A stretch of 38,916 bases of DNA, taken from the NCBI GenBank assembly GCA_944350365.1, contig CALVOU010000009.1, positions 1 to 38,916 on the forward strand, in the 5' to 3' direction. Positions 1 to 16,796 of the stretch are shown here, in pieces (the stretch's first letter is position 1; each line of letters starts with the position of its first letter). Made by a program: the position numbers and the translations under genes. The notes below the pieces were generated by a model that saw only the letters and a program-made list of their open reading frames with translations, ran no database searches and was not told the origin of the DNA. The DNA is from an uncultured Bacilli bacterium (lineage in GTDB: Bacteria > Bacillota_I > Bacilli_A > RF39 > UBA660).

Positions 1-81
1 CATATGTTTCCTAACTAAAACTCAAAAAAGCAGACAGAATTTCAAAAAAAATTAATCCTCTCATATGTTTCCTAACTAAAA
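1..81. repeat. 20-bp direct repeat pair at the window edge
   Basis: The same 20 bases, CATATGTTTCCTAACTAAAA, occur at 1-20 and 62-81, a period of 61 bp. On the reverse strand each copy reads TTTTAGTTAGG..., which resembles the GTTTTAG start of type II CRISPR repeats, and the 41 bp between them is spacer-like. The first copy touches the window edge, so its true length is unknown. With only two copies, this may be the end of an array or an ordinary tandem repeat. Confidence 0.5.
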
Positions 82-114
82 GGCACTTTTACGAAGTGTA
101 TTTTCTAAAAAAAT

Positions 115-399
115 TTAATATTTGTATTTTTTTATAATATTTTCTATTTCTTTTAAGTTATATTTTGCTTTATGTTCTTTAATGTAAAATGGTTTATTAC
201 TAATTTCATTTACTTTGTATTCAAGAATAGTAAGAGTAATAGGATGGATAATCAGATATTCTGTTGGTTCAATAATTTGTAAATTAGTATGTAGAAAAAC
301 TTTAATTTTTCCTTTTTTAGTTTTGAAAGTATAGTTTTTAATAAGTTCTATTATTTTGGGATTAGGTTTAAATTCTTCTATAACTTTAAATTCAAGCAT
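115..399 (-). CDS. Hypothetical 94-aa protein
   Basis: I do not recognise this family. The start is well supported: on the reverse strand the ATG is preceded by AAGGAGGAC, an excellent ribosome site about 7 bases away. The protein is Lys/Ile rich with no signal peptide, membrane segment or Cys cluster. It has short alternating beta-like and charged stretches and ends in a lysine-rich helix (IIKKYKY). It lies downstream of, and in the same direction as, the two tRNA genes but is separated from them by a terminator hairpin. No partner gene is visible and the 20-bp repeats begin just after its stop. Confidence 0.65.
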   Translation of the reverse strand: MLEFKVIEEFKPNPKIIELIKNYTFKTKKGKIKVFLHTNLQIIEPTEYLIIHPITLTILEYKVNEISNKPFYIKEHKAKYNLKEIENIIKKYKY

Positions 400-445
400 A
401 AAAAATGTCCTCCTTCCTAGAAAGAGAACATTAAAGTTTTATATA

Positions 446-482
446 AAATAAAAACTTACGAACCATTATAGTCCGTAAGTTG
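446..482 (-). terminator. Terminator of the tRNA operon
   Basis: Inverted repeat AACTTACG (453-460) / CGTAAGTT (474-481). Read on the reverse strand the hairpin is followed by a T-rich run, as expected for a Rho-independent stop after the tRNA-Cys/tRNA-Gly transcript. Confidence 0.7.
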
Positions 483-490
483 TATTCAAA

Positions 491-565
491 TGGAGCGGAT
501 GAGGGGAATCGAACCCCCGTCACAGCCTTGGCAAGGCCGTATTCGAGCCACTAAACTACATCCGC
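491..565 (-). tRNA. tRNA-Gly (GCC)
   Basis: The reverse strand folds as a complete tRNA: acceptor GCGGATG/CATCCGC, D arm with AGTGGC, anticodon loop TTGCCAA giving anticodon GCC, T arm with GGTTCGATTCC, discriminator T and an encoded CCA (491-493). It is 75 nt long. It lies 5 bp downstream of the tRNA-Cys gene, so the two are probably cotranscribed. Confidence 0.95.
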
Positions 566-570
566 AATTC

Positions 571-644
571 TGGAGGGCCTAGTCGGATTTGAACCAACGA
601 TCAGGGAGTTGCAGTCCCACGCCTTACCACTTGGCTATAGACCC
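571..644 (-). tRNA. tRNA-Cys (GCA)
   Basis: Reverse-strand tRNA with acceptor GGGTCTA/TAGGCCC, D arm AGCCAAGTGGTAAGGC, anticodon loop CTGCAAC giving GCA, T arm GTTGG-TTCAAAT-CCGAC and an encoded CCA. The discriminator base is U, the identity base for cysteine tRNA. It has 74 nt. The outermost anticodon-stem pair appears to be a T-T mismatch; otherwise the cloverleaf is normal. Confidence 0.93.
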
Positions 645-685
645 AAAGTATTTGAATTACCCCAAAAAGATAACTCATGAATATA

Positions 686-714
686 ATAGTACACTAATAA
701 TTTTTTTTTGTCAA
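686..714 (-). promoter_or_regulatory. Sigma-A promoter of the tRNA operon
   Basis: On the reverse strand, TTGACA (709-714) is followed after exactly 17 bp by TACTAT (686-691), about 40 bp upstream of tRNA-Cys. Confidence 0.75.
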
Positions 715-718
715 TTCA

Positions 719-1174
719 TGTTTTTGCTTTTTTCTATTAAATTTGTTTTCGTTAAATTCTAAGTAAAGTGCACAATTATTAAAAAATAATTAGAAATGCT
801 TAAATTACAATAGAAAATGCACAACTGAGCACAAGAAAAAGCAAGTAAATTCGATTAAATTATGACAATTTTAAGAAAAATATATTGTAAAACACATAAC
901 AAAAATAGGAATTTTTAAAATTTACAAAAGTAATTGCACAATTCCTTTATTTATCTTTTTAATGCAATTTATTATATAATAAGTAAGCATTAAGTCAAGT
1001 TATCATTGACTTAATGCTATGAAAATTGTAATAAGTGAATAATTGTCAATGGTTAAAATAAACTCGCTTTGCTCGCTATTGACAATTTAACAATTATAAG
1101 TCTTATTGCACAACTTCTGTGCACTTTCAAAAAAAATCAACGTTAAATTTGTTTTTGCTTTTTTCTATTAAATT
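719..1174. repeat. Gene-free 0.7-kb gap with direct and inverted repeats
   Basis: The gap 645-1335 contains no convincing gene. A 25-bp sequence (TGTTTTTGCTTTTTTCTATT followed by AAATT) occurs identically at 719-743 and 1150-1174. Between them a 10-bp inverted repeat, AAAGTGCACA (765-774) / TGTGCACTTT (1118-1127), bounds a 363-bp core. Inside the core are a perfect hairpin with 13-bp arms (986-998 / 1006-1018), a second inverted repeat AATTGTCAAT (1041-1050) / ATTGACAATT (1078-1087), and several TGCACAA words. The layout resembles a non-autonomous mobile element or its remnant; no transposase is present. Confidence 0.55.
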
Positions 1175-1335
1175 ATATGAGAAATAGAAAAAGAAAGTAC
1201 CTATAGTAAAAAATATTTAAAAAAATAACGGAAAAAACTCTCTTGCCTAATATTGTATGATAAAATTAAAACAAAAGATACAAGAATAGTATTATCTAAG
1301 AAAGAAGGTGTAGGGAGTAATATTATTCCTAAAAA

Positions 1336-1659
1336 ATGAAAGAGAAAATAGAAGAGTATTTAAAACGAATAAATGAGGTCAAGGGTACTGAAAGTGAACA
1401 ATTAAAAGAAGATTTTTTAATCCATATTTCCTTTTATCAACATGAACGTTTAATTCATCTCCTAGTTACGATAACTTTTGCCCTCCTTACTTTTTTCGGC
1501 TTATATTTCCTAGTTACCGTACCAAGTATCGCAATCGGAATTTTGTTCGTTATCTTTTTAATTATGTTAGCATTCTATATTAAACATTATTACTTTTTAG
1601 AAAATAATGTTCAAAAACTCTACAAAATTTACGATGACTTAACCAAAATAAAACACTAA
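1336..1659 (+). CDS. Small two-helix membrane protein, copy 1
   Basis: A 107-aa protein of unknown function. After a charged N-terminal helix come the block YQHERLIHLLVT (about residues 35-46), two closely spaced membrane helices (about 45-82), and a C-terminal KHYYFLENNVQKLYKIYDDL block. The same architecture and blocks (FQHERLIHLLVT, RHYFFLENAVQ) recur in the protein at 22007-22342, so this is a two-copy family in this genome. An in-frame TAA just upstream (1330-1332) fixes the ATG as the first possible start. The ribosome site is poor: GGAG lies about 18 bases upstream. The PerR-like gene follows 68 bp later behind its own promoter. Confidence 0.75.
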   Translation: MKEKIEEYLKRINEVKGTESEQLKEDFLIHISFYQHERLIHLLVTITFALLTFFGLYFLVTVPSIAIGILFVIFLIMLAFYIKHYYFLENNVQKLYKIYDDLTKIKH

Positions 1660-1666
1660 AAAAGAC

Positions 1667-1694
1667 TTGCATTTCTTTCTTGCAATGATATAAT
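1667..1694 (+). promoter_or_regulatory. Promoter of the perR-hydrogenase operon
   Basis: TTGCAT (1667-1672) and TATAAT (1689-1694) are separated by 16 bp. The expected transcription start falls at about 1701, directly on the Fur-type operator. Confidence 0.75.
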
Positions 1695-1700
1695 AATAAC

Positions 1701-1715
1701 TGATAATCATTATCA
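1701..1715 (+). promoter_or_regulatory. Fur/PerR-type operator (7-1-7 palindrome)
   Basis: TGATAATCATTATCA is a perfect 7-1-7 inverted repeat. It equals the core reported for Bacillus Fur boxes (TGATAATnATTATCA) and differs from the PerR box (TTATAATnATTATAA) at one position per arm. It covers the predicted transcription start and ends 12 bp before the regulator's ATG, so autorepression of the operon is likely. Confidence 0.85.
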
Positions 1716-1727
1716 ATAAGGAGTGTT

Positions 1728-2123
1728 ATGAAATACCGAAACACTAAACAAAAAGAATTGATTTTAGCCATCATCAAAAATAATCACGATCATCCAACAA
1801 TTTACGAAATTTATGATGAAGTCAAAAAGGCAGACGCCAGTATTGGCCAAGCAACAGTCTATCGCAATGTGAAACAATTCGTAAAAGAAGGGAAAATTAG
1901 TCTGTTAAAAACAAAACAAGGAATAGACCGTTATGATTTTTATCAAGACCATTTTCATCTTGAATGTTTAACCTGTGGTAAGTTATTTGATTTCTATGAC
2001 TCGAAATTACTCAATCAACTAAAGAGTAAGAATTATCTAGATGGCTTTCAAGCGACAAACTATAATTTAACGATTGAAGGATATTGCTTAGAATGTAATG
2101 GAGGAAAACGTGAAGAAGTTTAG
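1728..2123 (+). CDS. perR: Fur-family metalloregulator, PerR-like
   Basis: A 131-aa Fur-superfamily repressor: winged-helix DNA-binding half with the recognition segment [13 protein letters not shown], then a dimerisation half with [12 protein letters not shown] and a C-terminal CLEC pair, so the structural zinc Cys4 site (CxxC plus CxxC) is complete. RYD, HFH and the FDF aspartate match the PerR regulatory-metal ligands (Asp, His, His, Asp); Fur proteins usually carry Glu at the last position. This favours a peroxide sensor, in keeping with the rubrerythrin in the same operon, although the operator reads as a Fur box. AAGGAG lies 9 bases before the ATG. The stop overlaps the next gene. A true Fur cannot be excluded. 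Confidence 0.85.
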
Positions 2124-4320
2124 ATGTAAAATATGTGGTTATATTGAAGAAAGGGAAGAGTTACCAGATGGGTATACTTGTCCTCTTTGTGGAGTAGGCA
2201 AAGAAATGATGGAAGAGGTAATCGAAGAACAACGCCCAAAGAAGAAGTACCGCTGTAAGCTATGTGGCTATATCGAAGAAAATGGCGATTTGGTTGAACA
2301 AGGAGATTACCGCTGTCCAGTTTGCGGAGTTCATCAAGAATTCATGGAAGAAATCACAACAGAAGAAACTCCTCCTGAAAAAGAGGACAAAAGAATTCCT
2401 ATCGATGAAGACAATTCAGGAATCGCTAGAATCATGGAAAAGTGCATTAATTGTGGCCGTTGTAAAGATATCTGTCAAAACGTAGTTGGCATAAAATACC
2501 AAGACAAGGTAACGGGACACCCAGCTTGTGTTTCTTGTGGCCAATGTATCTTGAATTGTCCAATGGGAGCAATTGTCCCTAAATATAACTACAAGAAAGT
2601 AGCTCAAGAAATTGAAAATAAAGATAAAATTGTCATCGCATTAACTTCTCCTGCTGTCAGGGTTGCCTTAGGGGAAGAATTTAAGGAAGAAGCAGGTACC
2701 AATGTTGAAGGCAGAATGGTAGGAGCTTTAAAAGAATTAGGGTTTGATTATGTATTCGATACCACTTTTGGCGCTGATTTGACTATCATGGAAGAAGCTA
2801 GTGAATTGGTCTTTAGAATAAAAGAAAACAAGAACTTGCCTCAATTAACTAGTTGCTGCCCAGCTTGGGTGAAATATGTAGAAATTTACCATCCTGATTG
2901 GATAAAGAATTTATCTACTTGTAAAAGTCCAATTGGTATGCAAACAACAATGATTAAAACCTATTTTGCACAAATAAAAAATTTGGATCCAACCAAAATA
3001 ATTACGGTAGCAATAACTCCTTGTACAGCAAAGAAGAGTGAAGCGCTACGCGAAGAACTAAAATCAAGTAGTACTTTTTGGCACAAAGAAATCACAAGAG
3101 ATAATGATTATGTCATCACGACTAGTGAACTAGGCTTAATGTTACGAGAAAAAAGAATAGATTTTACGAAAGTCTCTGAGCAACACTTCGATTCTTTATT
3201 AGAAAGAGGAAGTGGAGCAGGTGTCTTATTTGGGAACAGTGGAGGGGTAATGGAAGCAGCTATTCGAACTGCTCATTATCTACTAACAGGAAAAGACCAA
3301 GAAGCATTATTAAACTATACACCAGTTCGTGGCTTAGAAGAAGTAAAAGAAGCAACGGTTACTATCGGAGATGTTGTACTTCAAGTTGCTGTCGTATACG
3401 GCTTACCTAATTGGGAACGCCTCTTAGAGAAAATGAGACAAGAACATAAAAAGTATCATTTTATCGAAGTGATGAATTGTCCAGGTGGCTGTATCGGTGG
3501 AGGCGGACAACCGCTAACCGCAATTAATAAGCAAAAAGAGATCCTAGAAAAAAGAATGGCTGGAATTTATCAAAGCGATAAAGACAGTCGTATTCGTTAC
3601 TCTTATCGAAATCCCGATATTGAAAAAATTTACCGTGATTTCTTAGGAGAACCATTAAGCCCAATTAGTGAGGAACTCTTACATACGAGTTACCAAGATA
3701 AAAGTAAGTTATTAAAAGAGCAATCTTTTAATATAGATAAAAAACAAGAAAAGGAAGGAATGAAAAAAATGGATTACGCAAAATTAAAAGGTTCTAAAAC
3801 AGAACAAAATTTAATGACAGCTTTTGCTGGAGAAAGTCAAGCTAGAAACAAATATTCATACTATGCTTCAAAAGCAAAAAAGGATGGTTATGAACAAATC
3901 GCTGCTATTTTCGAAGAAACAGCAAATAACGAAAAAGAACATGCTAAATTATGGTTCAAATACCTACATGGTGGCGACATCCCATCTACAATGGAAAACT
4001 TAGAAGATGCTGCTCAAGGCGAAAACTACGAATGGACAGATATGTATGCTGGATTCGCAAAAGAAGCTAAAGAAGAAGGATTCGATGAATTAGCTTACTT
4101 ATTCGATGCAGTAGCAAAAATCGAAAAAGAACATGAAGAAAGATATTTAACACTATTAAAAAATGTTAAAGATGACCGTGTATTCCATAAAGATGGAGAC
4201 AAAATTTGGATCTGCCGTAACTGTGGACATGTTTATGTTGGAAAAGATGCTTTAGATGTATGTCCAGTTTGTAAACATCCAAAATCATTTATGGAAGTAA
4301 AAGCAGATAATTATCAATAA
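2110..4320 (+). CDS. Rubredoxin-[FeFe]-hydrogenase-rubrerythrin fusion protein
   Basis: One 736-aa chain carries, in order: two rubredoxin-like knuckle pairs (CKICG/CPLCG near 5-35; CKLCG/CPVCG near 48-78), a two-[4Fe-4S] ferredoxin domain ([23 protein letters not shown], near 112-155), the H-cluster domain with all three signatures ([28 protein letters not shown], near 247-470), a small-subunit-like tail (near 480-520), and a complete rubrerythrin (from about 554) with [16 protein letters not shown] and KEHEERY diiron motifs and a CRNC/CPVC rubredoxin end. Expected activity: H2 oxidation or proton reduction coupled to peroxide reduction in the cytoplasm. I chose GTG 2110 because GGAGG (2100-2104) sits 5 bases upstream; the in-frame ATG at 2098 would place that site inside the coding region. 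A second ribosome site within the gene could also yield rubrerythrin alone. No hydrogenase maturases are in the window. Confidence 0.92.
3751..3771 (+). promoter_or_regulatory. Internal ribosome site before the rubrerythrin domain
   Basis: AAGGAAGGA (3751-3759) lies 9 bases before an in-frame ATG at 3769 (and directly abuts one at 3760), exactly where the hydrogenase part ends and rubrerythrin begins. Initiation here would give a free 183-aa rubrerythrin, the normal length for that family. Confidence 0.55.
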
Positions 4321-4343
4321 ACATTCTTAGTAGTTAATGAGTA

Positions 4344-4382
4344 AAAAGTACCGGCACAATATAAAGTTGGTACTTTTCCAAT
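4344..4382 (+). terminator. Terminator after the hydrogenase operon
   Basis: AAAAGTACC (4344-4352) pairs with GGTACTTTT (4369-4377), ending in a short T run. Confidence 0.7.
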
Positions 4383-4523
4383 GAAACAAAGTAGTCGAAA
4401 AGAACGAAAAAATAGTCAAAAAGGAAATAAAACTATTGGTAATTTTCTCCAAACAAAAACTATATAATCCGCATAAAATAAGGGTAAATAGGAATAACAG
4501 AGTGCATATTAGACCTCCCGAAT

Positions 4524-4552
4524 TTGCAAAAGCTAGTCCCCTATGGTATAAT
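4524..4552 (+). promoter_or_regulatory. Strong sigma-A promoter
   Basis: TTGCAA (4524-4529), a 17-bp spacer and TATAAT (4547-4552) with an extended -10 (TGG before it). Because transcription should start near 4559, the coding start at 4578 is the only plausible one for the gene that follows. Confidence 0.8.
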
Positions 4553-4577
4553 GGTAACTGTTCGAAAGAGAGGAATT

Positions 4578-5276
4578 ATGAAAAAAATTTGTAATTATGC
4601 TTTCAGAATAGTATGTGTCTATATCGTGGTTTTAACACTATTTAGTCTAGCTAGTGCCAATGTTACAATTGAAAAAGAATCTTACCTAGTACAAAATAGT
4701 AATATTACCAAACAATTAAACAGTAAATTGATCGCAGATGTGGTAGTAGAACAAGAAGAAATAAAAGAAGAACTAGAAATACCACAAGCTAAAGTAGAAG
4801 AACAAAAAGAAGTAATACAGCAAGAAACTACTCCAGTTATAGAAAATCAAGAATCAGGAGTAGAACAACCACAAGTATCTACGCCAAGCTATATTGCGCC
4901 AATAGACACGACTAGTTTTCCAGTACTTTCTACGAATGTTGGAACTGTAAGCCATTATGGACACGATTGTTACGGATGTACATCAGGTAAAACAGCATCT
5001 GGTTATTACATTGGTGACGGCCGTATCTATTATAATGACCCTGCCTACGGTAGTGTACGAATTGTTGCAGCAGGAAGTGAATATCCCCTGGGGTCGATTT
5101 TACGTTTAACTAATATTGGAGATTCTCCGATGTTAGTAATCGTCCTAGATAGAGGTGGAGCAATCGGATCAGGTAAAGGTCGTATTCTAGACTTGCTGAC
5201 CGAAAGCAACGCCGTAGCATACCAACAGGGACTAAAATATAATGTAAAGGTAGAAGCATTAAGATTGGGTTACTAA
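4578..5276 (+). CDS. Secreted 3D-domain (RlpA-like barrel) protein
   Basis: A 232-aa exported protein. A hydrophobic N-terminal segment (about 8-27) serves as signal or anchor, a Glu/Gln-rich linker (about 55-105) follows, and a C-terminal domain carries GKTASGYYIGDGRIYYNDP, YPLGSILRLTN and VLDRGGAIGSGKGRILDLL. The last motif matches the 3D domain, a double-psi barrel with catalytic Asp residues related to MltA/RlpA lytic transglycosylases, so a wall-cleaving or wall-binding role outside the membrane is likely. GAGAGGA precedes the ATG at 4578; earlier in-frame codons overlap the promoter. A weak hairpin with a T run overlaps the stop (5254-5292). Confidence 0.8.
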   Translation: MKKICNYAFRIVCVYIVVLTLFSLASANVTIEKESYLVQNSNITKQLNSKLIADVVVEQEEIKEELEIPQAKVEEQKEVIQQETTPVIENQESGVEQPQVSTPSYIAPIDTTSFPVLSTNVGTVSHYGHDCYGCTSGKTASGYYIGDGRIYYNDPAYGSVRIVAAGSEYPLGSILRLTNIGDSPMLVIVLDRGGAIGSGKGRILDLLTESNAVAYQQGLKYNVKVEALRLGY

Positions 5277-5353
5277 TTTTGATGCTTTTTTCTGGAATTT
5301 TTAGTGGGATATGATATAATGGAAAATAAGAAAAGGTATAAATAGGTGGTTTT

Positions 5354-6517
5354 ATGAGACAAGAGAAAAAGTTGTTCAAACATCAAACTGCGATTACGAT
5401 AATAGCAGTAATTATCACAGTAACAGTAGCTATAGGAAGTTGCTATCTACTTTTTAATCGTCAAGATAGAAATAGTGAATACAATACATTTAGAGAAGAG
5501 GATTTTGAAATTAGTTATGTCGATAATGGGAGAGGAAATGGCGATGTATTATCTTTAGTAAATGCTACGCCAATGACGGATGAAGAAGGAACTAGTCAAC
5601 AACCATATCGTTTTAATGTGACAAATACTGGAAAAGAAGAAGCTAAATTTGTAATCAAATTATCTTTTGATCAAGCCTTAATCGATGAAGATGATTGTGA
5701 AACTAAGCAATTATCGACATACTATATAAAATATAAAATTGATAATGAAGAGCCAAAAGTGTTAAGTACAGTGGAAGCGAAAGACTACGAAATTTATGTG
5801 AGCAACAATGAACTGATGCCAGGAAGTAGTGAAATTCACGAATTGAGAATTTGGTTAGCAACTAATAGTCCAGAAAGTGTGCAAAGTGGACACTTTCATG
5901 GACGATTAGAAATTGAACAGGTCACAGAGGAAAAAGAATGGCAAGAATTTCAAGTGGGGCAGGCAGTTACTTTACCAAATGGCGATAAGTATCATGTGAT
6001 CGAAGCAAGTGATAGTACAATGTCTAAAGTCAAACTATTAAGTGACTATAACTTAATTCCAACTGGAGTTCAAGATACCACTTGCGTAATCAGTGAGTTT
6101 ATTCAAGAAAAAATCACAGAAGGGAAAATTAATGATCAATTAGAAACCTACTATTGTAGTACTGGAAAATATCAAGAATTAGAAACTACGCTATATCAGA
6201 ATTATTTTAACAACTTGAAAAAGGCAGAAATCATCGATAATTATGATGAAATCCGCTTAATTACTGTTCCGGAAATTGAAAACATCGTCAACGATAAAAT
6301 AGACTCGACAACTTTTTTAACCAGTCTACAAAATGAAAATATTTCTTGGCTAACGACGGGAAATTATTGGACAGCAACGCCTAATTCTAACAATGCAAAT
6401 TTTGCTTGGGCAGTAAGTGTGGGTGAAACAGGAGTAACCCTTCAAGAATTTGAAAATACTTCAGAATATTTTGGTATTCGCCCAGTCGTGGTTATAGATA
6501 AAGATATATTACAATAG
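5354..6517 (+). CDS. Membrane-anchored surface protein with DUF6273-like end
   Basis: A 387-aa protein with one N-terminal membrane helix (about 13-34) and a large outside part. The middle (about 45-195) looks like a beta-sandwich with FNVTNTGKEEAKFVIKLSF, comparable in style to TasA/camelysin-like or other immunoglobulin-like surface domains. The C-terminal part (about 200-387) has WLTTGNYWTATP and a final FGIRPVVVID, the signature style of DUF6273-type domains common on gut Firmicutes surfaces. No catalytic residues can be assigned. A TATAAT at 5315-5320 and a GGTGG ribosome site precede the ATG, and a strong terminator follows, so this is a single-gene unit. Confidence 0.7.
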   Translation: MRQEKKLFKHQTAITIIAVIITVTVAIGSCYLLFNRQDRNSEYNTFREEDFEISYVDNGRGNGDVLSLVNATPMTDEEGTSQQPYRFNVTNTGKEEAKFVIKLSFDQALIDEDDCETKQLSTYYIKYKIDNEEPKVLSTVEAKDYEIYVSNNELMPGSSEIHELRIWLATNSPESVQSGHFHGRLEIEQVTEEKEWQEFQVGQAVTLPNGDKYHVIEASDSTMSKVKLLSDYNLIPTGVQDTTCVISEFIQEKITEGKINDQLETYYCSTGKYQELETTLYQNYFNNLKKAEIIDNYDEIRLITVPEIENIVNDKIDSTTFLTSLQNENISWLTTGNYWTATPNSNNANFAWAVSVGETGVTLQEFENTSEYFGIRPVVVIDKDILQ

Positions 6518-6542
6518 CGAGTAAAAAAAACTCGCTTTTTTG
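6516..6542 (+). terminator. Rho-independent terminator
   Basis: AGCGAGT (6516-6522), an A7 loop and ACTCGCT (6530-6536) followed by six T. It overlaps the stop codon of the surface protein gene. Confidence 0.85.
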
Positions 6543-6593
6543 ATGGACATATGGTATAATAAAGCCACTATCAACGAAAAGGAGACGGTGGAA

Positions 6594-7436
6594 ATGAAAT
6601 TATTGAACAAATGGTTATCTCCACTTATCGTAATCACATTTGGGATTATTGGTATTGTAACACCTTTTGCCATTATTCCTGCACCAAGTATAATTAGTAT
6701 TCTAGGAGGAACAGCAATCGGTTTACTAACAGGAGCAATCGTTGTAACCGGAAGTGAGCTTTTCTTTGGAGATAACGATAATCTTGAGGAGGATAAAAAG
6801 AAATTAGATCTAAAGAAAAATAGAACAAGATACAAAAAAGGAAGCAAACAAAATGCGTATTCTTTAGGAAAGAAAAAAGAAATGAGAAAAGCAGGAGCTA
6901 ATCCTCGTCCTGTTAAAAATATCTTGACCCTAGAAGAAGAAAAAAACAAAACCAATTCTACTAGCACTAAAAAACGCCCAGTTAGAAATGTTTTAAAGTT
7001 AGATGACGAGAAAGAAACTGTTGACCAAGCAACATCAAGTAATCAAAAACACCCTGTCAAAAATATTTTGACATTAGAAGAAGAATCAAAAACGACTTCT
7101 ACTAGTACTAGAAATCATCACGTTAGAAACATTTTAAAATTAGATGATGAGGAAGAAAATAAACAAGAAAATACTTATTCTTTACACCCAGTTACAGATA
7201 AGAAAAATGTGCTTTTCCAAGAACCATACAATAAAACAACATCAACAGGAACGAAAAAAGATAATTTGTGGGTAAATGATGAAAAGATAATGTATGATGT
7301 CAAATCCAGTTTAGAACATTTGAGAAAGACATTAGCGGAAACAGAAAAGCAGATTAATGAACTTCGGGCATTATTAGAAAACTTAACAGAAATTAAAGGA
7401 AAAGGTCAGTCAAAAGTGAAAATAAAAATAAATTAA
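6594..7436 (+). CDS. DPYN-family membrane protein A, with internal repeats
   Basis: A 280-aa protein of a family I do not recognise. Two hydrophobic segments lie at about 9-55, followed by a long, highly charged Lys/Glu/Ser/Thr region predicted to be disordered and cytoplasmic. That region contains four copies of a P-V-[KR]-N-[IV]-L-[TK]-L-[ED]-[ED]-E unit in alternating types (KNILTLEEE, RNVLKLDDE, KNILTLEEE, RNILKLDDE). Near the C-terminus are VLFQEPYNK and WVNDEKIMYDV, then a coiled coil (about 225-265). The LFx[DE]PYN and [IV]N[DEQ]E blocks recur in the next two genes. AAAAGGAG is 9 bases before the ATG; a TATAAT (6555-6560) rules out earlier starts. Confidence 0.75.
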   Translation: MKLLNKWLSPLIVITFGIIGIVTPFAIIPAPSIISILGGTAIGLLTGAIVVTGSELFFGDNDNLEEDKKKLDLKKNRTRYKKGSKQNAYSLGKKKEMRKAGANPRPVKNILTLEEEKNKTNSTSTKKRPVRNVLKLDDEKETVDQATSSNQKHPVKNILTLEEESKTTSTSTRNHHVRNILKLDDEEENKQENTYSLHPVTDKKNVLFQEPYNKTTSTGTKKDNLWVNDEKIMYDVKSSLEHLRKTLAETEKQINELRALLENLTEIKGKGQSKVKIKIN

Positions 7437-7448
7437 AATCATTGAGAA

Positions 7449-7484
7449 CCTCGTTTAAATAAAAAAGCATAAACGAGGCTTTAA
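7449..7484 (+). terminator. Rho-independent terminator
   Basis: CCTCGTTTA (7449-7457) pairs with TAAACGAGG (7470-7478), followed by CTTTAATTT. Confidence 0.75.
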
Positions 7485-7509
7485 TTTGTGCATGGATTGG
7501 CAAAGAAAT

Positions 7510-7538
7510 TTGTCAAATATTCTCTAATGTAATATAAT
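7510..7538 (+). promoter_or_regulatory. Promoter of DPYN gene B
   Basis: TTGTCA (7510-7515), 17 bp, TATAAT (7533-7538). The 15 bases TATAATAAAGCCACT starting at the -10 are identical to those at 6555-6569 before gene A. Confidence 0.75.
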
Positions 7539-7568
7539 AAAGCCACTTAAATGAAGGGGGAGAAAAGT

Positions 7569-8299
7569 ATGAAAACGGTGAAGAAAATGAATAGCTATGA
7601 AAAAGGATTAAGAAAAGATATCAAAAAATGGTCTAAAAAGATAGCTTTAAATCGGTTGGCCCTATGCTGTGTTAATGGGTATGAAGCACTATCAGTGTTG
7701 GGAATAATTACTGGAGCAGTTGGTTTAATCCTTAGTACAAGTCCGATTGTGTGTGTCGCTATGTTTTTTTTGGGCTTTTTTGCGAGAAGATATTATTCTA
7801 CTCAAGCAAAGGAGTTAAAAAAAGAACTCGACGTGCAACTAGCTGAAAAAGATATGTTTAAGTATGAATTAGAACGGTATGAAGAAAATAGTAAGCAAAA
7901 ACAGCTATCTCCAAAAGTAAAAACTGGCATAGAAACAAGTACAAATAAGGAGAATATGGCTGTGAAAGAACAAGGAATTCAAAAAGAAGTACGACTTTTG
8001 ATGAAATGTCAGCTATGCCAATTAGAAAAATCGGAAATTATCGAGTTCACTCTACCCCTACAGCACAAAAGCCTTTATTCCAAGATCCGTATAATCAAAC
8101 AGCGAAAAATAGCCATCTAACAATTAATCAGGAACAAGTCTTAAAAGATCCTAATCAAGATTACCAGGCGGAGGCGATTCTAGATTCACAAGATAAATTA
8201 CCAGAAAGCAATGCCCAAGAATCTTTGGCTTCTATTCAAAGAGCATTTAGAGAATTAGATAAAGAAAAGGGAAAAACTTTAATTAAAACTAGAGAATAG
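7569..8299 (+). pseudogene. DPYN-family membrane protein B, frameshifted
   Basis: The first frame (7569-8120) encodes a charged N-terminus, one or two membrane segments (about 42-72) and a charged coil, but after about 7997 it turns into unlikely sequence. The -1 frame (open 7949-8299) then gives YRVHSTPTAQKPLFQDPYNQ and LTINQEQVL, the C-terminal family blocks of proteins A and C. Reading one extra T in the TTTT run at 7996-7999 joins the halves smoothly (VRLFDEMSAM). This is a one-base deletion, a sequencing error or, less likely, recoding; no canonical slippery heptamer is seen. GGGGGAG precedes ATG 7569. The second half alone (ATG 8006) has no ribosome site. Confidence 0.7.
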
Positions 8300-8400
8300 T
8301 CTCACTAAAGGATAACGAGTGATATAAATTCAAATTGTTTTTATCCTTGTTGTCCCATGTCTTTCATAAATAATAATCAATAAAGGAAAGGAAGATAAAA

Positions 8401-9285
8401 ATGGAAAACAGAAAACAGAAAATGACAAAATCTCATTTAGGAGCTCGTTTTTTTGCCACTATATTAATTGGTGTAGTGGTTACACCGATAGTAGCTACTA
8501 CACTATTAATCATGTCTCGAATCCCAATTAGTATGGCTCTTTTATATGGAGCTATCCCAGGAATTGCTCTTGGGGGTCTAGTAGGTGCTGGTATAGGGGG
8601 ACTTAACTATATTTATTCCAAACAAAAATTAGAAGAAGAGATAAATGAAGACGAAAATTTGGTGGTAGAAGAAAAAGATAACAGTGACAAAAAGGGGACT
8701 TTAGTCAAAGAAAAAGCTAAGGTGAAGAAAGAACAACGTGAAAAGAAAAAAGCGGAGCGTAAGCAAAGAAAAGAAGCCAAAAAACAACAGAAATTAAAAA
8801 ACAAACAAGAAAAAATAGCCAAAAAGCAAAAAAAAGGCTTCCATGAAGAAAAAAAACGTACCCAAGAAACAAGTACGAAAAGACATAATAAAGTAAAAAA
8901 GAATGAAATAAGTAATATAGATAAAGAAAATATTGTTCCTTTAAAAAAACAAGAATCCAAAAAGCAACAGCCAGAATTGCAAACTACGTCGGTCAAAAAA
9001 GAGATAAAACCATTATCTACTTACCACTTAGATAAGAATAATAATCCAAATACAAAGATTGTTCTATTTAGTGATCCGTATAATCAAATGGCCAAAAAAC
9101 AAAATCCATTTAATCATAATTTAACAATAAATGAAGAAAAAATTGTCGCTGATGTGCTCGCTCGTTTAACAGAACTAAATCATGAATTAGAAATCGCCCA
9201 ACAAGAATTAATCAGAATACAACAACAATTAGCTGAGTTTGAAAAAATGAATGAACATCCGCCAATAACTAAAGTAAAATCATAG
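8401..9285 (+). CDS. DPYN-family membrane protein C
   Basis: A 294-aa member of the same family as the two preceding genes. Two membrane helices (about 14-37 and 43-73) end in a Gly-rich GGLVGAGIGG stretch. A very long Lys/Glu/Gln-rich region (about 78-205) follows, then YHLDKN, VLFSDPYNQ and LTINEEKIVADV, and a C-terminal coiled coil (about 255-282) with leucine/isoleucine heptads. The topology suggests a membrane-anchored coil on the cytoplasmic side. AAAGGAAAGGAAG precedes the ATG. The A-rich composition of the middle region makes the opposite strand look open (8613-8996), which is an artefact. Function unknown; scaffold or envelope organisation is only a guess. Confidence 0.75.
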   Translation: MENRKQKMTKSHLGARFFATILIGVVVTPIVATTLLIMSRIPISMALLYGAIPGIALGGLVGAGIGGLNYIYSKQKLEEEINEDENLVVEEKDNSDKKGTLVKEKAKVKKEQREKKKAERKQRKEAKKQQKLKNKQEKIAKKQKKGFHEEKKRTQETSTKRHNKVKKNEISNIDKENIVPLKKQESKKQQPELQTTSVKKEIKPLSTYHLDKNNNPNTKIVLFSDPYNQMAKKQNPFNHNLTINEEKIVADVLARLTELNHELEIAQQELIRIQQQLAEFEKMNEHPPITKVKS

Positions 9286-9318
9286 AATCTACTCTTGCCA
9301 AAAATAGATTTTTTTTCT
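9286..9318 (+). terminator. Rho-independent terminator
   Basis: AATCTA (9286-9291) pairs with TAGATT (9305-9310), followed by a run of T. The stem is short but the T tract is strong. Confidence 0.6.
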
Positions 9319-9338
9319 ATACTAATAACGGTGATAAA

Positions 9339-9878
9339 ATGGAATTTAAAGAAGTACTAGAAAATAGAAGAAGCATTCGTAAATATACAAAACAAGCAGT
9401 TGAAAAAGAGAAAGTAGACGCCATAATCGAAGCAGGGTTACTAGCACCATCTGCCCATAACACTCAACCTTGGCAGTTTATTATCGTAAGAGATAGTATT
9501 CCTGAAATTGTTAAATTATTAAAAGAAGAAGGAGAAAAACATCCTGAAGATGAAAGTATCAGTAAAACAGCTGATACAATATCAAGAGGAAATACACTGA
9601 TATTAGTCTATAGTGATCGCTTAGAAAATCCTGACTTTACGCTATTATCGATGGGCGCAATGATCGAAAATATGCTTTTAAAGGCAACAGATTTAGGACT
9701 AGGTTCCTTATGGATTGGTAATATTTTAAAAATCAGTAGTCAAGTTGCTCACTATTTTGAATTAGATGATACAAAATTACATCTAGTCAGTGCCGTTCTT
9801 TTAGGATATAAAGAAAAAGATCCTAAACCATTAGAAAGAAAAACCTTAGCTAATTCGATCATTAAAGAAGAAAAATAG
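9339..9878 (+). CDS. Nitroreductase-family flavoprotein
   Basis: A 179-aa FMN-dependent oxidoreductase of the nitroreductase superfamily. The N-terminal RRSIRKYTKQAVEKEKV and the APSAHNTQPWQF block are the FMN-binding signatures, and GLGSLWIGN is the central-helix region. Such proteins use NAD(P)H to reduce quinones, nitro compounds or flavins; the substrate here cannot be told. Length is normal for the compact subfamily. The ribosome site is weak (GGTGAT). It is bounded by terminators on both sides and is likely a single-gene unit. Confidence 0.88.
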   Translation: MEFKEVLENRRSIRKYTKQAVEKEKVDAIIEAGLLAPSAHNTQPWQFIIVRDSIPEIVKLLKEEGEKHPEDESISKTADTISRGNTLILVYSDRLENPDFTLLSMGAMIENMLLKATDLGLGSLWIGNILKISSQVAHYFELDDTKLHLVSAVLLGYKEKDPKPLERKTLANSIIKEEK

Positions 9879-9896
9879 ATTATCTTTCTTTTCAGT

Positions 9897-9928
9897 AAAG
9901 TTTAGTAAAAAGACTAAACTTTTTTTCT
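9897..9928 (+). terminator. Rho-independent terminator
   Basis: AAAGTTTAGT (9897-9906) and ACTAAACTTT (9913-9922) form a perfect 10-bp stem followed by T residues. Confidence 0.85.
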
Positions 9929-9964
9929 TTAGTCTGTTACAATGAAAAAGGAGGTACATACTAG

Positions 9965-12109
9965 ATGAATCAAGAAATTATTAACGAAATTAGTGAACAA
10001 TTAGCAATTAAAAATAAACAAGTAGAAGCAGTTTTAAAACTATTACAAGAAGGAAATACGATTCCATTTATCGCTCGTTATCGAAAAGAAGTAACAGGGG
10101 CTTTAGATGAAGAACAAATTAGAAAGATTAACGAAGTCTACGAATATCAAGAGAATTTATTAAAACGTAAAGAAGATGTTATTCGTTTGATCGAGGAGAA
10201 AGGATTATTAACAGAAGAATTAAAACAATCGATCATGGCTTGTCAAAAATTAGTCGAAGTAGAAGATTTGTATCGACCATATAAAGAGAAAAAGAAAACT
10301 AAAGCAACTGAAGCCATTAAGAATGGATTAGAACCACTAGCTAAAATGATGATGTCTTTTCCGACAACGGGAAATCTAACTCAGATGGCAGAAAAGTTTA
10401 TTACCGATAAAGTACCAACTGTCGAAGAAGCTATTCAAGGCGCTAAATATATCATTGCTGAATGGATCAGTGATAATGCTAGTTATCGAAAAGAATTACG
10501 TCGTAGAATGTTTAGAGAAGGAATACTAACAGCTAAGAAAAAGAAAAATGCGGTCGATGAGAAAAAGGTATACGAAATGTATTATGATTATAGCGAACCA
10601 GTTAAGAGAATGAAAGCTCATCGTATTTTAGCGGTAAATCGTGGAGAAAAAGAAGATGTTTTAAGCGTGAGTATCTCTGTTAATGAAGAAGAGATGTTAG
10701 GCTACCTAGAAACAAAAATCATCAAAAATAAATCTTCATTTGTAACATCAGAGATCAAAGAAGCAATAAAAGATAGTTACAAACGTTTAATTGCTCCTAG
10801 TATTGAACGAGAAATTCGCGCTGAATTAAAAGAAGATGGGGAAGTTGTTGCCATTGAAAACTTTGCGAAAAATGTAGAGAGTCTATTGTTGACACCACCA
10901 ATGCGAGAGAAAACAGTATTAGGTTTTGATCCGGCTTTTCGTACAGGATGTAAACTTGCTGTACTTGATCCAACCGGTAAAGTACTAGCGATTGAAGTGA
11001 TCTATCCAACTGGGCCTCATCATAAAATAGAAGAGAGTAAAAAGGTTGTTCTTGATTTGATTAACCGCTACAATATTGATATTATCGCCATCGGAAATGG
11101 AACTGCCTCTCGGGAAAGCGAAGCTTTTATTGCCGATACGATCAAAGAGTCTTCACGACCTGTTGAATATGTTATTGTTAGTGAAGCAGGGGCTTCCGTT
11201 TATTCCGCATCTCCGCTAGCGATTCAAGAGTTTCCTGATCTAACCGTCGAGAAGCGAAGCGCTATTTCTATTGGTAGAAGATTACAAGATTCTTTATCTG
11301 AACTTGTAAAAATTGATCCTAAAAGTATCGGCGTAGGACTCTATCAGCACGATGTACAAGGAAAGAAGTTAGATGATACTTTAGAATTCGTCGTCACTAA
11401 AGCGGTAAACCAAGTTGGTGTAAATATTAATACAGCCTCTTCTTCTTTATTAAAATATGTCTCAGGGTTAACCAAAAGAGCCATTAATGCACTTCTTCAT
11501 TATCGTGAAGTTCACGGTAAAATTACCTCTCGAGAAGAAATTCATCAAATCCAAGGAATTAGTGATAAAGTTTACGAACAATCTATTGGATTTATCCGTA
11601 TCCAAGAGGGGACTAATCCATTAGATAGGACTTCTATCCATCCAGAAAGTTATCCCGTTGCGGAAAAGTTATTAGCTTTACTAGGGTTTACGCCTAATGA
11701 TGTAGGGTCGGCAGCACTAAAAGAAAAATTAGCGACTTTCGACTTACAAAACAGTAACTTAGAAGTAGATAGCTATACACTTCAAGATATTGTTGATGCA
11801 CTTCAAAAACCAAATCGTGATCCACGTGATGAATTACCTAAACCGCTTTTAAAAAGTGATGTTCTTCATATCGAAGATCTTCATCTTGGAGATAAACTTC
11901 AAGGAACAGTACGTAACGTTGTTGACTTTGGTCTATTTATCGATATTGGACTCCATCAAGATGGATTGGCTCATATTTCTAAATTAACTGATCAATATAT
12001 CAAACATCCTTCAGAATTATTTTCTGTAGGCGATATTGTCGACTGTTATGTTATTGATATCAAAAAAGAACAAGAGAAAGTCTCTTTAAGTTTAATAGAA
12101 GGAAAATAG
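9965..12109 (+). CDS. tex: Tex-family RNA-binding transcription accessory protein
   Basis: A 714-aa Tex (YdcI) protein, about the usual family length. Domains in order: helical Tex N-domain with PFIARYRKEVTGALDEEQIR (about 32-52), a YqgF/RNase H-like domain starting with VLGFDPAFRTGCKLAVLDP (about 317), helix-hairpin-helix motifs (NTASSSLLKYVSGL, about 490-560), and a C-terminal S1 domain (GTVRNVVDFGLFIDIGLHQD, about 645-712). It binds nucleic acid and is linked to transcription elongation and RNA turnover. AAGGAGGT lies 8 bases before the ATG. The acetyltransferase gene starts one base after the stop, so they form an operon. Confidence 0.95.
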   Translation: MNQEIINEISEQLAIKNKQVEAVLKLLQEGNTIPFIARYRKEVTGALDEEQIRKINEVYEYQENLLKRKEDVIRLIEEKGLLTEELKQSIMACQKLVEVEDLYRPYKEKKKTKATEAIKNGLEPLAKMMMSFPTTGNLTQMAEKFITDKVPTVEEAIQGAKYIIAEWISDNASYRKELRRRMFREGILTAKKKKNAVDEKKVYEMYYDYSEPVKRMKAHRILAVNRGEKEDVLSVSISVNEEEMLGYLETKIIKNKSSFVTSEIKEAIKDSYKRLIAPSIEREIRAELKEDGEVVAIENFAKNVESLLLTPPMREKTVLGFDPAFRTGCKLAVLDPTGKVLAIEVIYPTGPHHKIEESKKVVLDLINRYNIDIIAIGNGTASRESEAFIADTIKESSRPVEYVIVSEAGASVYSASPLAIQEFPDLTVEKRSAISIGRRLQDSLSELVKIDPKSIGVGLYQHDVQGKKLDDTLEFVVTKAVNQVGVNINTASSSLLKYVSGLTKRAINALLHYREVHGKITSREEIHQIQGISDKVYEQSIGFIRIQEGTNPLDRTSIHPESYPVAEKLLALLGFTPNDVGSAALKEKLATFDLQNSNLEVDSYTLQDIVDALQKPNRDPRDELPKPLLKSDVLHIEDLHLGDKLQGTVRNVVDFGLFIDIGLHQDGLAHISKLTDQYIKHPSELFSVGDIVDCYVIDIKKEQEKVSLSLIEGK

Positions 12110-12110
12110 A

Positions 12111-12677
12111 ATGGGAAAAATCGAAATCAAACAACAAATTAAAGAGTTAGAAGATGAATTAAGAAAACTTTATGCGTTAGAAAAATACGGATATTTGACG
12201 GATACTGTTCAAAGAATCATGAATATTAACCACCAGATTGACCTTTTAAGATTTGAGTATCCCTATGCGGATGGTCCAACTTATCAAGGAGAAGAAATCG
12301 ATCTCTATTTAAATGAAGAAGAACAAGAATCTAGTGAATTAGAAGGGAAGTACTATACGATTACTCTCCATGGTACAACAAAGAGAATAGGAAGACTTCG
12401 ACTTAGTTTGGAACTAGACAAGATCATTCCCTTTTATGCGAATATTGGCTATTCTATTCTCCCAAAGTATCGAGGGAATCACTATGCCTTAAAAACTTTA
12501 GAACTTGTTCGCCAAGATCTCCTAGAAAAAGGCTTTTCCCAAATTAAAATTACTGCTTACCCTGATAATATCGCTTCAATTAAAACAATCGAAGCCTTCG
12601 GTGGACAAAGAGTAAAACCTGAGGAAGGAGAGTCTTGGAATACTTATGAAGTAGACCTCACTCAGCATAAAAAATAA
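12111..12677 (+). CDS. GNAT acetyltransferase with coiled-coil N-terminus
   Basis: A 188-aa protein. Residues 1-60 form a charged helical or coiled-coil segment; the rest is a GNAT fold with the acetyl-CoA-binding stretch ILPKYRGNHYALKTLELV (about 116-133) and the late ITAYPDNIASIKTIEAFGG block. The acceptor substrate is unknown. It starts one base after the tex stop (TAG-A-ATG) with AAGGAAA as ribosome site, so it is translationally linked to tex. The CoA loop reads KYRGNHYA in place of the usual Q/RxxGxG/A, a mild variation. A terminator follows. Confidence 0.85.
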   Translation: MGKIEIKQQIKELEDELRKLYALEKYGYLTDTVQRIMNINHQIDLLRFEYPYADGPTYQGEEIDLYLNEEEQESSELEGKYYTITLHGTTKRIGRLRLSLELDKIIPFYANIGYSILPKYRGNHYALKTLELVRQDLLEKGFSQIKITAYPDNIASIKTIEAFGGQRVKPEEGESWNTYEVDLTQHKK

Positions 12678-12709
12678 AAAGTGTATTGAGAAAACAAAAA
12701 TACTAAAAA

Positions 12710-12736
12710 GCACTTGTAAAGCAAGTGTCTTTTTTA
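12710..12736 (+). terminator. Rho-independent terminator
   Basis: CACTTG (12711-12716) and CAAGTG (12722-12727) with a TAAAG loop, then TCTTTTTT. It ends the tex operon. Confidence 0.8.
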
Positions 12737-12985
12737 CTTTTTGTTGTGTAAATCGAACAAGAAAAAATTCAAAAAAAATAGAAAAAGTAAAAATTGAGAA
12801 AATCGAAATTTATGAAAAAAGCAAAAAAATTAAAAAAGTCAAGAGAAAAATAAAGAAATGTAAAATCTATATAAAATAAGGAAAAAATGAGATGTTGACA
12901 TAATTTTTAAGATAATAAAAAAATCAAAAAAATCCAAAAAATGAAAAAATAGAAAATGTAAAATTTGAAAAAATATCAAAAGTCG
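12737..12985. other. A-rich, strand-biased gene-free tract upstream of nrdD
   Basis: About 250 bp dominated by A runs and AAAAATG/GAAAAA words on the plus strand, with few T runs and no usable open frame. It sits between the tex-operon terminator and the nrdD promoter. It may be an UP-element-like or bent DNA region, or a low-complexity tract; I see no palindromic NrdR box in it. Confidence 0.4.
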
Positions 12986-13015
12986 TTGACTAATTGACCC
13001 GCATAGTTATACAAT
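12986..13015 (+). promoter_or_regulatory. Promoter of the nrdD operon
   Basis: TTGACT (12986-12991) followed by TATACA (13008-13013, 16-bp spacer) or TACAAT (13010-13015, 18-bp spacer). The leader to the nrdD ATG is about 30 nt. Confidence 0.65.
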
Positions 13016-13052
13016 CGAATTAACAAAAAAATAGGAGTGGAGAAGTGGTAAA

Positions 13053-15365
13053 ATGACAGATACAGTAGAAGAAGTAAAAGAATTGATGGTAGTCAAGCGA
13101 AACGGGAAAAAAGTAGAATTTGATGGCTCGAAAATCGCTCTAGCGATAAAAAAAGGGTTCGATAGTATCGTCAACTCGGATCAAGAAGAAAAAGGCGAAA
13201 GAAAATACAATGAAAAAGATATACAAAAAGTATATCAAGCTGTACTTAATCGTATTGATAAAAAGTATCGGGATGCTGGAAAAATTAAAATAGAAGAAAT
13301 TCAGGATATGATTGAAGAAGAATTGGAGAAAAAAGGGTATGAAGATGTTTATCGTTCTTTTTCTGAATATCGTGATCGTAGAAATCAGTCACGGCAAAAC
13401 TTCGCTGATGATAAAAAAATGCATAAATTTTTAAAATCATTGGAAAATTTAGGCTTAAAGTCAGCAAATGAGGATGACGCTAAACGAGAAAACGCCAACA
13501 TAGATGGTAACAGTCCAATGGGAACAATGCTTCAATATGGAGCAACTGTATCAAAAGAGTTTGCAAAAGCTTATCTGATGAAACAAAAATATGCAGAGGC
13601 TCATGATAGTGGAGAAATTCACATTCATGATATGGATTTTTTTGCGATGGGGACAACAACTTGCTGTCAAATTGATTTAGCTCGTTTGTTTAAAAATGGT
13701 TTTGATACTGGACATGGATACATCAGGCCACCGCAAGATATTAGCACTTATGGTTCTCTTGCTGCAATTGCTATTCAAGCAAATCAAAACGATCAACATG
13801 GTGGCCAAGCCGTACCAGCTTTTGATTATTATATGGCACCGGGTGTATTAAAGACTTTCAAGAAACAATTCAAACAAGCAATCTATGATAGCTTAGATTT
13901 AGAAGGATTTCTTCCTTTTGTTAATATGGAAAGAATAGCTAAAGAAATAGATAAATTAGAATCAATTGAATTTGACCATCAAATTTTCTATCCGTTTGCC
14001 AAAGGTTCGGAAGAAATTAAAAAGGTTATTGAAATGAGCTATGAAAAAGCAATTCAGAAGACGAATCGTGCAACACAACAAGCAATGGAAGCATTCATTC
14101 ATAATTTAAATACGATGCATTCTCGTGCGGGAGCACAGGTTCCATTCTCATCAGTAAATTTAGGAACAGATACTTCCCCAGAAGGTAGGATGGTAATTCG
14201 AAATTTCTTGGAGGCAACAGATGCAGGGTTAGGACATGGGGAAACACCGATCTTCCCAGTCTCTATTTTTAAGATTAAAGAAGGCATTAACTATAATCCT
14301 GAAGATCCAAACTATGATTTATTTAAATTAGCGTGCAAAGTATCCGCTAAGAGATTATTTCCTAACTTTGTTTTTATCGATGCCCCATTTAATTTACAAT
14401 TTTATAAACCAGGTGATATCAATACAGAAATTGCTTATATGGGATGCAGAACGAGAGTGATTTCTGATGTGACAGATCCTAACCATCAAGTAGTAACTGG
14501 TAGAGGAAACTTATCATGGACGACAATTAATTTACCACGTTTAGGAATAAAATATGGAATCTGCTTAAAAGAACGTGATAAGGCAGACATGAAAGGATTC
14601 TATCAAGAACTAGAAGAATTGATGGACATGGTAAAAGATCAATTATTAGAGCGTTTTGAAATTCAATGTAACAAGCACAATTATAATTTTCCATTCCTTT
14701 TAGGACAAGGAGTATGGAACGACGGAGAAAAATTAAAACCAACCGATCGCCTTCGTAAGGTTTGGAAACATGGTAGTTTGTCAATCGGATTCATCGGACT
14801 AGCAGAATGTTTGAAAGCATTAATAGGCAAGCATCACGGTGAAAGCAAAGAAGCTCAAAACTTAGGCTTAGAAATTATTGGCTTCATGCGTAAGAAATGT
14901 GATGAATACGCAGAAAAATTTAATTTAAATTTTGCTTGTTTAGCAACACCTGCAGAAAGTTTGTCAGGAAGATTTATCAATATCGATAAAGCTATCTATG
15001 GTAAAATAAAAGGAGTAACTGACCGTGAGTACTACACTAATTCGTTTCACGTACCTGTTTACTACAATACGAGTATCACCCATAAGATAAAAACAGAAGC
15101 ACCATATCATGAGTTGACGAATGGTGGACACATCTCTTATATTGAATTAGATGGAGACGCCGCTCAAAACGTGGAAGCATTCGAGAAAATCATCCGTTTA
15201 ATGAAGGAATCAGGAATTGGTTATGGAGCGGTTAATCATCCAGTAGATCGCGATCCGGTTTGTGGTTATGTTGGTGTGATTGGTGATGTCTGCCCAGGTT
15301 GTGGAAGGCACGAATTTGAAAGCATTCCAATTGAACGCCTGCATGGTAGCAGTTGCGAATGTTAA
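13053..15365 (+). CDS. nrdD: Class III (anaerobic) ribonucleotide reductase, large part lacking the glycyl-radical domain
   Basis: A 770-aa oxygen-sensitive NTP reductase for dNTP synthesis. An ATP-cone (VVKRNGKKVEFDGSKI, about 13-110) gives allosteric control. The barrel follows with TTTCCQIDL (about 200, candidate thiyl cysteine) and NTMHSRAGAQVPFSSVNLG. The C-terminal zinc-type region reads DPVCGYVGVIGDVCPGCGR and then the protein ends in GSSCEC. The usual RRxTGYL glycyl-radical stretch that normally follows is absent; it is encoded by the separate small gene 49 bp downstream. The final CxC may complete the metal site. AGGAGTGGAGAAG precedes the ATG. The operon continues with the radical subunit and nrdG. 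Confidence 0.93.
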   Translation: MTDTVEEVKELMVVKRNGKKVEFDGSKIALAIKKGFDSIVNSDQEEKGERKYNEKDIQKVYQAVLNRIDKKYRDAGKIKIEEIQDMIEEELEKKGYEDVYRSFSEYRDRRNQSRQNFADDKKMHKFLKSLENLGLKSANEDDAKRENANIDGNSPMGTMLQYGATVSKEFAKAYLMKQKYAEAHDSGEIHIHDMDFFAMGTTTCCQIDLARLFKNGFDTGHGYIRPPQDISTYGSLAAIAIQANQNDQHGGQAVPAFDYYMAPGVLKTFKKQFKQAIYDSLDLEGFLPFVNMERIAKEIDKLESIEFDHQIFYPFAKGSEEIKKVIEMSYEKAIQKTNRATQQAMEAFIHNLNTMHSRAGAQVPFSSVNLGTDTSPEGRMVIRNFLEATDAGLGHGETPIFPVSIFKIKEGINYNPEDPNYDLFKLACKVSAKRLFPNFVFIDAPFNLQFYKPGDINTEIAYMGCRTRVISDVTDPNHQVVTGRGNLSWTTINLPRLGIKYGICLKERDKADMKGFYQELEELMDMVKDQLLERFEIQCNKHNYNFPFLLGQGVWNDGEKLKPTDRLRKVWKHGSLSIGFIGLAECLKALIGKHHGESKEAQNLGLEIIGFMRKKCDEYAEKFNLNFACLATPAESLSGRFINIDKAIYGKIKGVTDREYYTNSFHVPVYYNTSITHKIKTEAPYHELTNGGHISYIELDGDAAQNVEAFEKIIRLMKESGIGYGAVNHPVDRDPVCGYVGVIGDVCPGCGRHEFESIPIERLHGSSCEC

Positions 15366-15414
15366 ATAAAAAAAGAAAATTAGAATAAAAGGATAGAATA
15401 AAGGAGGAAAAAAA

Positions 15415-15597
15415 ATGGAAAAAACAGTTGGAGAAGGAGTAAAATTTGAAAGGATTAGAAGAATAACCGGATATCTTGCTGGAGATGTAAGTCGCTTCAA
15501 TAATGCTAAGAGAGCTGAAGAAAGAGATCGTGTTAAGCATAGTGGCCTTAAAGAGTTAATGAATCAAAAAAATAACACCAACACGGAAGCAGAGTAG
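15415..15597 (+). CDS. Stand-alone glycyl-radical subunit of the class III ribonucleotide reductase
   Basis: A 60-aa protein made almost entirely of the C-terminal glycyl-radical domain of NrdD: FERIRRITGYLAGDVSRFN, then KRAEERDRVKH. Gly19 in TGYL is the predicted radical residue, to be activated by NrdG. It starts with its own excellent ribosome site (AAAGGAGG, about 7 bases from ATG) and is in a different frame from nrdD, with stops between them, so it is a real separate gene and not a readthrough. nrdG begins one base after its stop. Assembly with the NrdD body in trans is inferred, by analogy to the spare radical domain YfiD/GrcA of pyruvate formate-lyase. Confidence 0.85.
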   Translation: MEKTVGEGVKFERIRRITGYLAGDVSRFNNAKRAEERDRVKHSGLKELMNQKNNTNTEAE

Positions 15598-15598
15598 A

Positions 15599-16159: not shown

Positions 16160-16161
16160 AC

Positions 16162-16190
16162 AAAGAGGAATATCCCTCTTTTTCTTTTCC
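16162..16190 (+). terminator. Terminator of the nrd operon
   Basis: AAAGAGG (16162-16168) and CCTCTTT (16175-16181) followed by TTCTTTT. Confidence 0.75.
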
Positions 16191-16303
16191 GAATGAACTA
16201 TTAGAAGTGTATTTAGAAATAAAAAATAAAAAAAGAAAAGACAAAGTGAAAAATATTTGTTAAAATAAAATAGAAAATAAAAAGAAATAAAAGGAGTGGA
16301 AAA

Positions 16304-16771: not shown

Positions 16772-16796
16772 AGATCAATTGACTTGATCTTTTTCT
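16770..16796 (+). terminator. Rho-independent terminator
   Basis: AAAGATCAA (16770-16778) and TTGATCTTT (16784-16792), then TTCT. The stem overlaps the last base of the preceding stop. Confidence 0.8.

Follow-up and report, generated by a model that had tools for sequence, protein, structure and literature searches.

Division scaffolds of the ZipA, EzrA and MapZ type combine a membrane anchor, a charged or disordered spacer and a cytoplasmic interaction end, with a coiled coil in EzrA. In proteins of the YtxH/GvpT type, a charged helical tail follows a glycine-rich helix at the N-terminus. Both plans resemble that of three tandem paralogues (A, B and C) found in 38,916 nucleotides of DNA from an uncultured Bacilli bacterium (the window) and of a fourth, D, on another contig. 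The family differs from ZipA, EzrA and MapZ, in a comparison made through the Pfam and NCBIfam scans alone, in having no match in either collection, two transmembrane (TM) helices rather than one and another motif. No common motif was seen with YtxH and GvpT, to the latter of which D gave a sub-cutoff match (E value of 0.002; score of 18.6 against a cutoff of 80), and this likeness is likely one of composition.

With membership taken to require that the whole protein score above the curated cutoff (Pfam and NCBIfam) or match clearly (PHROGs and PADLOC), these four collections contained no curated match; scores were far below cutoffs and confined to the TM segments or the charged helix. The full-length profile had no match in the PDB, and the matches of the C-terminal profile were weak ones to coiled coils, some natural and some designed, judging by their names. 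The preliminary description of this DNA had called the family undescribed, and no curated profile fits it. As far as these searches reach, A/B/C/D is a new orphan family, found so far in four related gut-bacterium species only, with clear candidate docking motifs and a locus at which membrane proteins turn over while the neighbours stay conserved.

Architecture and conserved motifs

Genes A, B and C (Table 1) encode membrane helices at the N-terminus, then a long stretch rich in K and E and the motifs Y-x-[LV]-[HD]...LFx[DE]PYN and L-x-[IV]-N-x-[DE]. The forms, in the order A, B and C, are YSLH, YRVH and YHLD; LFQEPYNK, LFQDPYNQ and LFSDPYNQ; and VNDE, INQE and INEE. The coordinates first given for A and C were right, and the Y-x-[LV]-[HD], LFx[DE]PYN[QK] and [IV]N[DEQ]E motifs reported for the three genes are present in each. 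Searched for with a degenerate DNA pattern, LFx[DE]PYN occurs three times in the 1.47-Mb genome, in A, B and C, and never in reversed-sequence controls.

Table 1. Features of the A-B-C locus (window positions; aa, residues of the product)
Feature	Position	Strand	Remarks
387-aa secreted or membrane protein	5354..6517	+	Weak Lcl_C match, below cutoff
Gene A	6594..7436	+	280 aa; ATG at 6594, preceded by AGGAGA
Gene A layout			TM hairpin aa 10-28 and 33-51 (predicted); spacer with four NIL[TK]L[DE][DE]; LFQEPYNK; LWVNDE; four-heptad coiled coil
Hypervariable block	6598..9335		DNA similarity gone over most of A-B-C versus G016 (from 6611) and G006 (from 6598)
Four N-[IV]-L-[TK]-L-[DE]3 copies, gene A	6918..7150	+	aa 109, 132, 157 and 179
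LFQEPYN motif, gene A	7212..7232	+	DNA-pattern match
Promoter-like site 5' of gene B	7510..7538	+	TTGTCA-17-TATAAT, consensus match alone
Gene B	7569..8299	+	Frameshifted in window; LFQDPYNQ and LTINQE retained, heptads lost
LFQDPYN motif, gene B	8075..8095	+	DNA-pattern match
Gene C	8401..9285	+	294 aa
Gene C layout			TM hairpin aa 20-38 and 43-61 (predicted); K/E-rich single helix 95-167; disordered linker; LFSDPYNQ 222-229; LTINEE 241-246; four-heptad coiled coil
LFSDPYN motif, gene C	9064..9084	+	DNA-pattern match

The three adjacent genes of the preliminary description are thus present as paralogues, but B has no single open frame in the window. It consists of two overlapping frames (7569-8120 and 8006-8299), and the frame changes near 7967, at a one-base difference from the copy in the related genome G012, which is intact (244 aa; L019:6808-7542). 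Because the G012 gene sits in one frame, a programmed frameshift at the A-rich stretch was dropped, and a recent mutation or assembly error is the simpler reading. The consensus match upstream suggests, as a match only, that B may have its own promoter.

Three features were absent from the preliminary description: the frameshift in B, paralogue D and a repeated motif in A. D is located near glyQS (L018:9119-10090) and deviates at the main motif (IFEEIYKQ). The second motif, N-[IV]-[LF]-[TK]-L-[DE]-[DE], is new here; the A proteins of the four species contain 4, 4, 5 and 3 copies and each D contains one in a slightly looser form, and it was never found in B or C. Its strict DNA pattern matches gene A alone in the whole genome.

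The family was defined by N-terminal hydrophobic segment(s) together with Y-x-L, [LIV]F-x-[DE]-x-Y and L-x-[IV]-N-x-[DE], all of which A, B, C and D possess. C-terminal heptads with mostly hydrophobic a and d positions occur in A, C and D, and inspection of these positions found the pattern missing or broken in B. The coiled coil proposed earlier for A and C is upheld by these heptads and by an AlphaFold helix with pLDDT above 90 in each. Paralogues are otherwise only about 20 to 25% identical, but all 13 members share F223, Y227, L241, N244 and L259 (C numbering) without exception. Conservation across the four paralogues and four species is in keeping with the earlier proposal that the C-terminal motif is the functional site, which is best regarded as a putative site.

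Hydropathy analysis found two N-terminal hydrophobic segments in most members, and one only, at the threshold used, in B, C6 and D12. The N-termini are basic (2 to 14 K/R), and the loops between segments are short and mostly neutral. Both ends are therefore predicted, by the positive-inside rule, to lie in the cytoplasm. The tails are rich in charge (34 to 43% K/R/D/E). The two AlphaFold models, from alignments of seven sequences only, were poor overall (pLDDT of 60 and 53; pTM of 0.22 and 0.20), with confident helices solely at C 95-167 (the spacer) and at C 245-285 and A 229-270 (the coiled coil). The conserved motif falls in low-confidence sequence, as would be expected of short linear motifs.

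Distribution and the equivalent site in sister species

Among 17 genomes of the genus, the full-length profile detected the family in four, namely that of the window (G000), G012, G016 and G006, so that homologues exist in three species beyond the one first described. Tex proteins of these four are 93 to 97% identical to that of the window, compared with 69 to 80% in the rest of the genus. In a scan of GTDB contigs, two records carried the family, one being Candidatus Alloscybalousia (formerly Scybalousia) intestinigallinarum (Bacilli). Among 193 family-level genomes, the profile search gave weak matches only and no accepted member. These matches (8e-6 to 0.01) were rejected after the motif was found to be absent from the 4 of 10 loci that were read (L044, L045, L048 and L049), which presumably encode charged or helical proteins, among them a FemX-like transferase and a DnaB-like helicase. 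Other candidates were likewise rejected: the matching frame in G015 is an unrelated protein, that in G037 contains internal stops, and nitroreductase neighbourhoods in other genera hold no similar gene. An origin in phages or plasmids was also rejected, as phage, plasmid and IMG/VR records gave no match beyond helix or composition similarity.

In the other species of the genus, the site between the 387-aa-type gene and nitroreductase/Tex is occupied by different charged, mostly two-helix proteins; G005 has no such protein at the syntenic site. Those placed in groups II and III (G001, G015, G008, G011 and G004; G007, G013 and G002) resemble the family in their position at the site in most cases, a hydrophobic pair, K/E-rich spacers and, in some, short repeats of their own, such as tandem repeats of ~36 aa in G007 and ~18 aa in G004 (L100:1566-3062 and L111:3242-4387). 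They differ in that group II has its membrane helices mid-protein and G004 has none by hydropathy. Group III proteins have a C-terminal Y-x-L...VDLS region that is reminiscent in look, but profile-profile comparison of C-terminal parts of groups II and III with those of the family was not significant (E values of 0.03 to 0.48; probability under 2%), and the 80% probability obtained for group III with the full-length profile was driven by the charged spacer. The likeness shown is one of position and architecture, and by the profile criterion these proteins do not qualify as members of the family. Parts of the 387-aa protein recur in many copies in sister genomes G010, G013 and G007. A sister protein, P0003, has a PADLOC LeoBC match over its TM/charged region.

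A candidate membrane scaffold

The reading given most weight, tentatively and at somewhat below an even chance, is that A to D are cytoplasm-facing, membrane-tethered dimeric scaffolds that dock a partner through fixed motifs; both the function and the partner are conjectural. Two glycine-rich helices are predicted to anchor each protein in the membrane and to leave the long C-terminal tail in the cytoplasm, where the charged spacer, predicted to be a stable K/E-rich helix in C and disordered repeats in A, would keep the conserved end off the membrane. A leucine-zipper-like coiled coil is predicted to pair chains, within or between paralogues, and a conserved partner would then meet the Y-x-L...LFx[DE]PYN and L-x-[IV]-N-x-[DE] motifs in pairs. 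The three to five NIL[TK]L[DE][DE] copies of A may form a second, multivalent site. The outcome would be the clustering of a cytoplasmic partner on a membrane scaffold, with motifs and heptads as the fixed points of a fast-varying block whose remainder may be loosely constrained or diversified.

This reading is favoured because F, Y, L, N and the heptad leucines are invariant in otherwise diverged members, and the membrane-tethered adaptor or scaffold first suggested fits the architecture (TM hairpin, both ends inside, spacer, short motifs and coiled coil), with its role still conjectural. Against it, K/E-rich helices and coiled coils evolve readily, and heptad conservation alone needs no partner. 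In addition, this genome's copy of B is disrupted and has no coiled coil, the motif of D is deviant, and the presence of the family in so few genomes of the genus implies that its function can be dispensed with or is supplied by other proteins. If the motifs do bind a conserved partner, small gut Bacilli would be seen to organise something at the membrane by lineage-specific scaffolds.

The tails could instead be loosely constrained structural spacers, for example in organising the envelope or membrane, in which only insertion and pairing matter and LFx[DE]PYN is a lead-in to the coiled coil. Low AlphaFold confidence outside the helices, dN/dS of 0.3 to 0.5 over all protein regions and the location of the motif 15 to 25 residues ahead of the heptads are all compatible with this, as are the charged membrane proteins that occupy the site in sister species, which look unrelated and have repeats of their own. 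Nevertheless, the invariance of the F and Y of the motif and of the N of L-x-[IV]-N in every member would be surprising in a spacer, and B retains both motifs despite its lost heptads, where a mere helix cap predicts otherwise, which leaves the spacer reading rather unlikely.

Divergence and exchange of the block

A, C and D fall into clean orthologous groups that are older than the four species. Their dN/dS is 0.24 to 0.47, compared with 0.03 to 0.05 for Tex, and the family evolves about ten times faster than this neighbour. Between G000 and G012, dN/dS is 0.46 for A, 0.38 for C, 0.46 for D, 0.03 for Tex and 0.10 for nitroreductase; ratios beyond this pair are rough because dS above 1 is saturated. 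Purifying selection on A and C in this pair shows that their frames are coding and, together with the homologues in three other species, excludes a set of poorly coding frames restricted to one genome, one of the outcomes that the preliminary description had named as refuting its view.

DNA similarity vanishes over most of A-B-C in comparisons with G016 and G006, with two short weak G016 matches inside C as exceptions, while the flanks are mostly 80 to 92% identical. Synonymous distances of block and flanks run opposite. Between G000 and G012, dS is 0.33 for the 387-aa gene, 0.15 for A and 0.34 for C versus 0.95 for Tex and 0.70 for nitroreductase, and between G000 and G016 it is 1.5, 1.4 and 1.2 versus 0.44 and 0.28, respectively. 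These opposed distances show that the A-B-C block has a history different from that of its flanks, one that the 387-aa gene shares, and indicate that it was swapped between species.

D is a mosaic: counted from the start codon, its first 372 bp lack DNA similarity to G012, and both flanks are 86 to 99% identical; the tails are 90 to 100% identical at the protein level. A silent store of alternative D N-termini was rejected, as a search of the genus for a second source gave known paralogues and chance-level matches only. The hypervariable A-B-C block, its interspecies exchange and the mosaic D are new here. In four sister species, glyQS directly adjoins the alpha/beta hydrolase gene with no D between. 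The 316-aa protein adjoining D (L018:8046-8996) is 94% identical in G012, and the search used found no orthologue of it in G016 or G006. Just upstream of D in G016 are transposase-like fragments (HTH_38, IS30-resembling; L022:7941-8699, minus strand).

Both the lost similarity of the block, with its opposed synonymous distances, and the replaced start of D would suit a conflict locus, at which cytoplasm-facing membrane proteins acting as sensor, effector or immunity proteins diversify and are swapped between species through interaction with phages or competitors. If the diversity were driven in this way, it would mark such an interaction. However, A to D match no PADLOC model of known anti-phage defence and have no enzymatic domain, dN/dS is below 1 in every comparison, and the motifs, far from being diversified, are conserved. 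Disordered sequence under relaxed constraint also changes fast, and dS varies at other loci too, so that gene exchange is general in these species. Conflict is an unlikely explanation. It is similarly doubtful that membrane and tail modules are exchanged as separate cassettes with the two docking motifs fixed, the site being a hot spot at which most species of the genus have their own version.

Least probable by far is a reverse topology with the tails outside the cell as surface proteins, which would account for variability like that of surface loci and for predicted secreted neighbours (the 387-aa protein and one with a weak 3D/RlpA-like match at 4524-5276), but the charge pattern of N-termini, paired segments and loops places both ends inside and Pfam detects no wall-binding domain.

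Across positions 1 to 17000 of the window, dS between the four species jumps from gene to gene, from 0.04 to above 1, which suggests that interspecies recombination is frequent in the lineage. Within this region, a 740-aa frame (2098-4320) joins an [FeFe] hydrogenase (group A) to rubredoxin-like domains, a ferredoxin-like part and a complete rubrerythrin, and this fusion is conserved in G012, G016 and G006.
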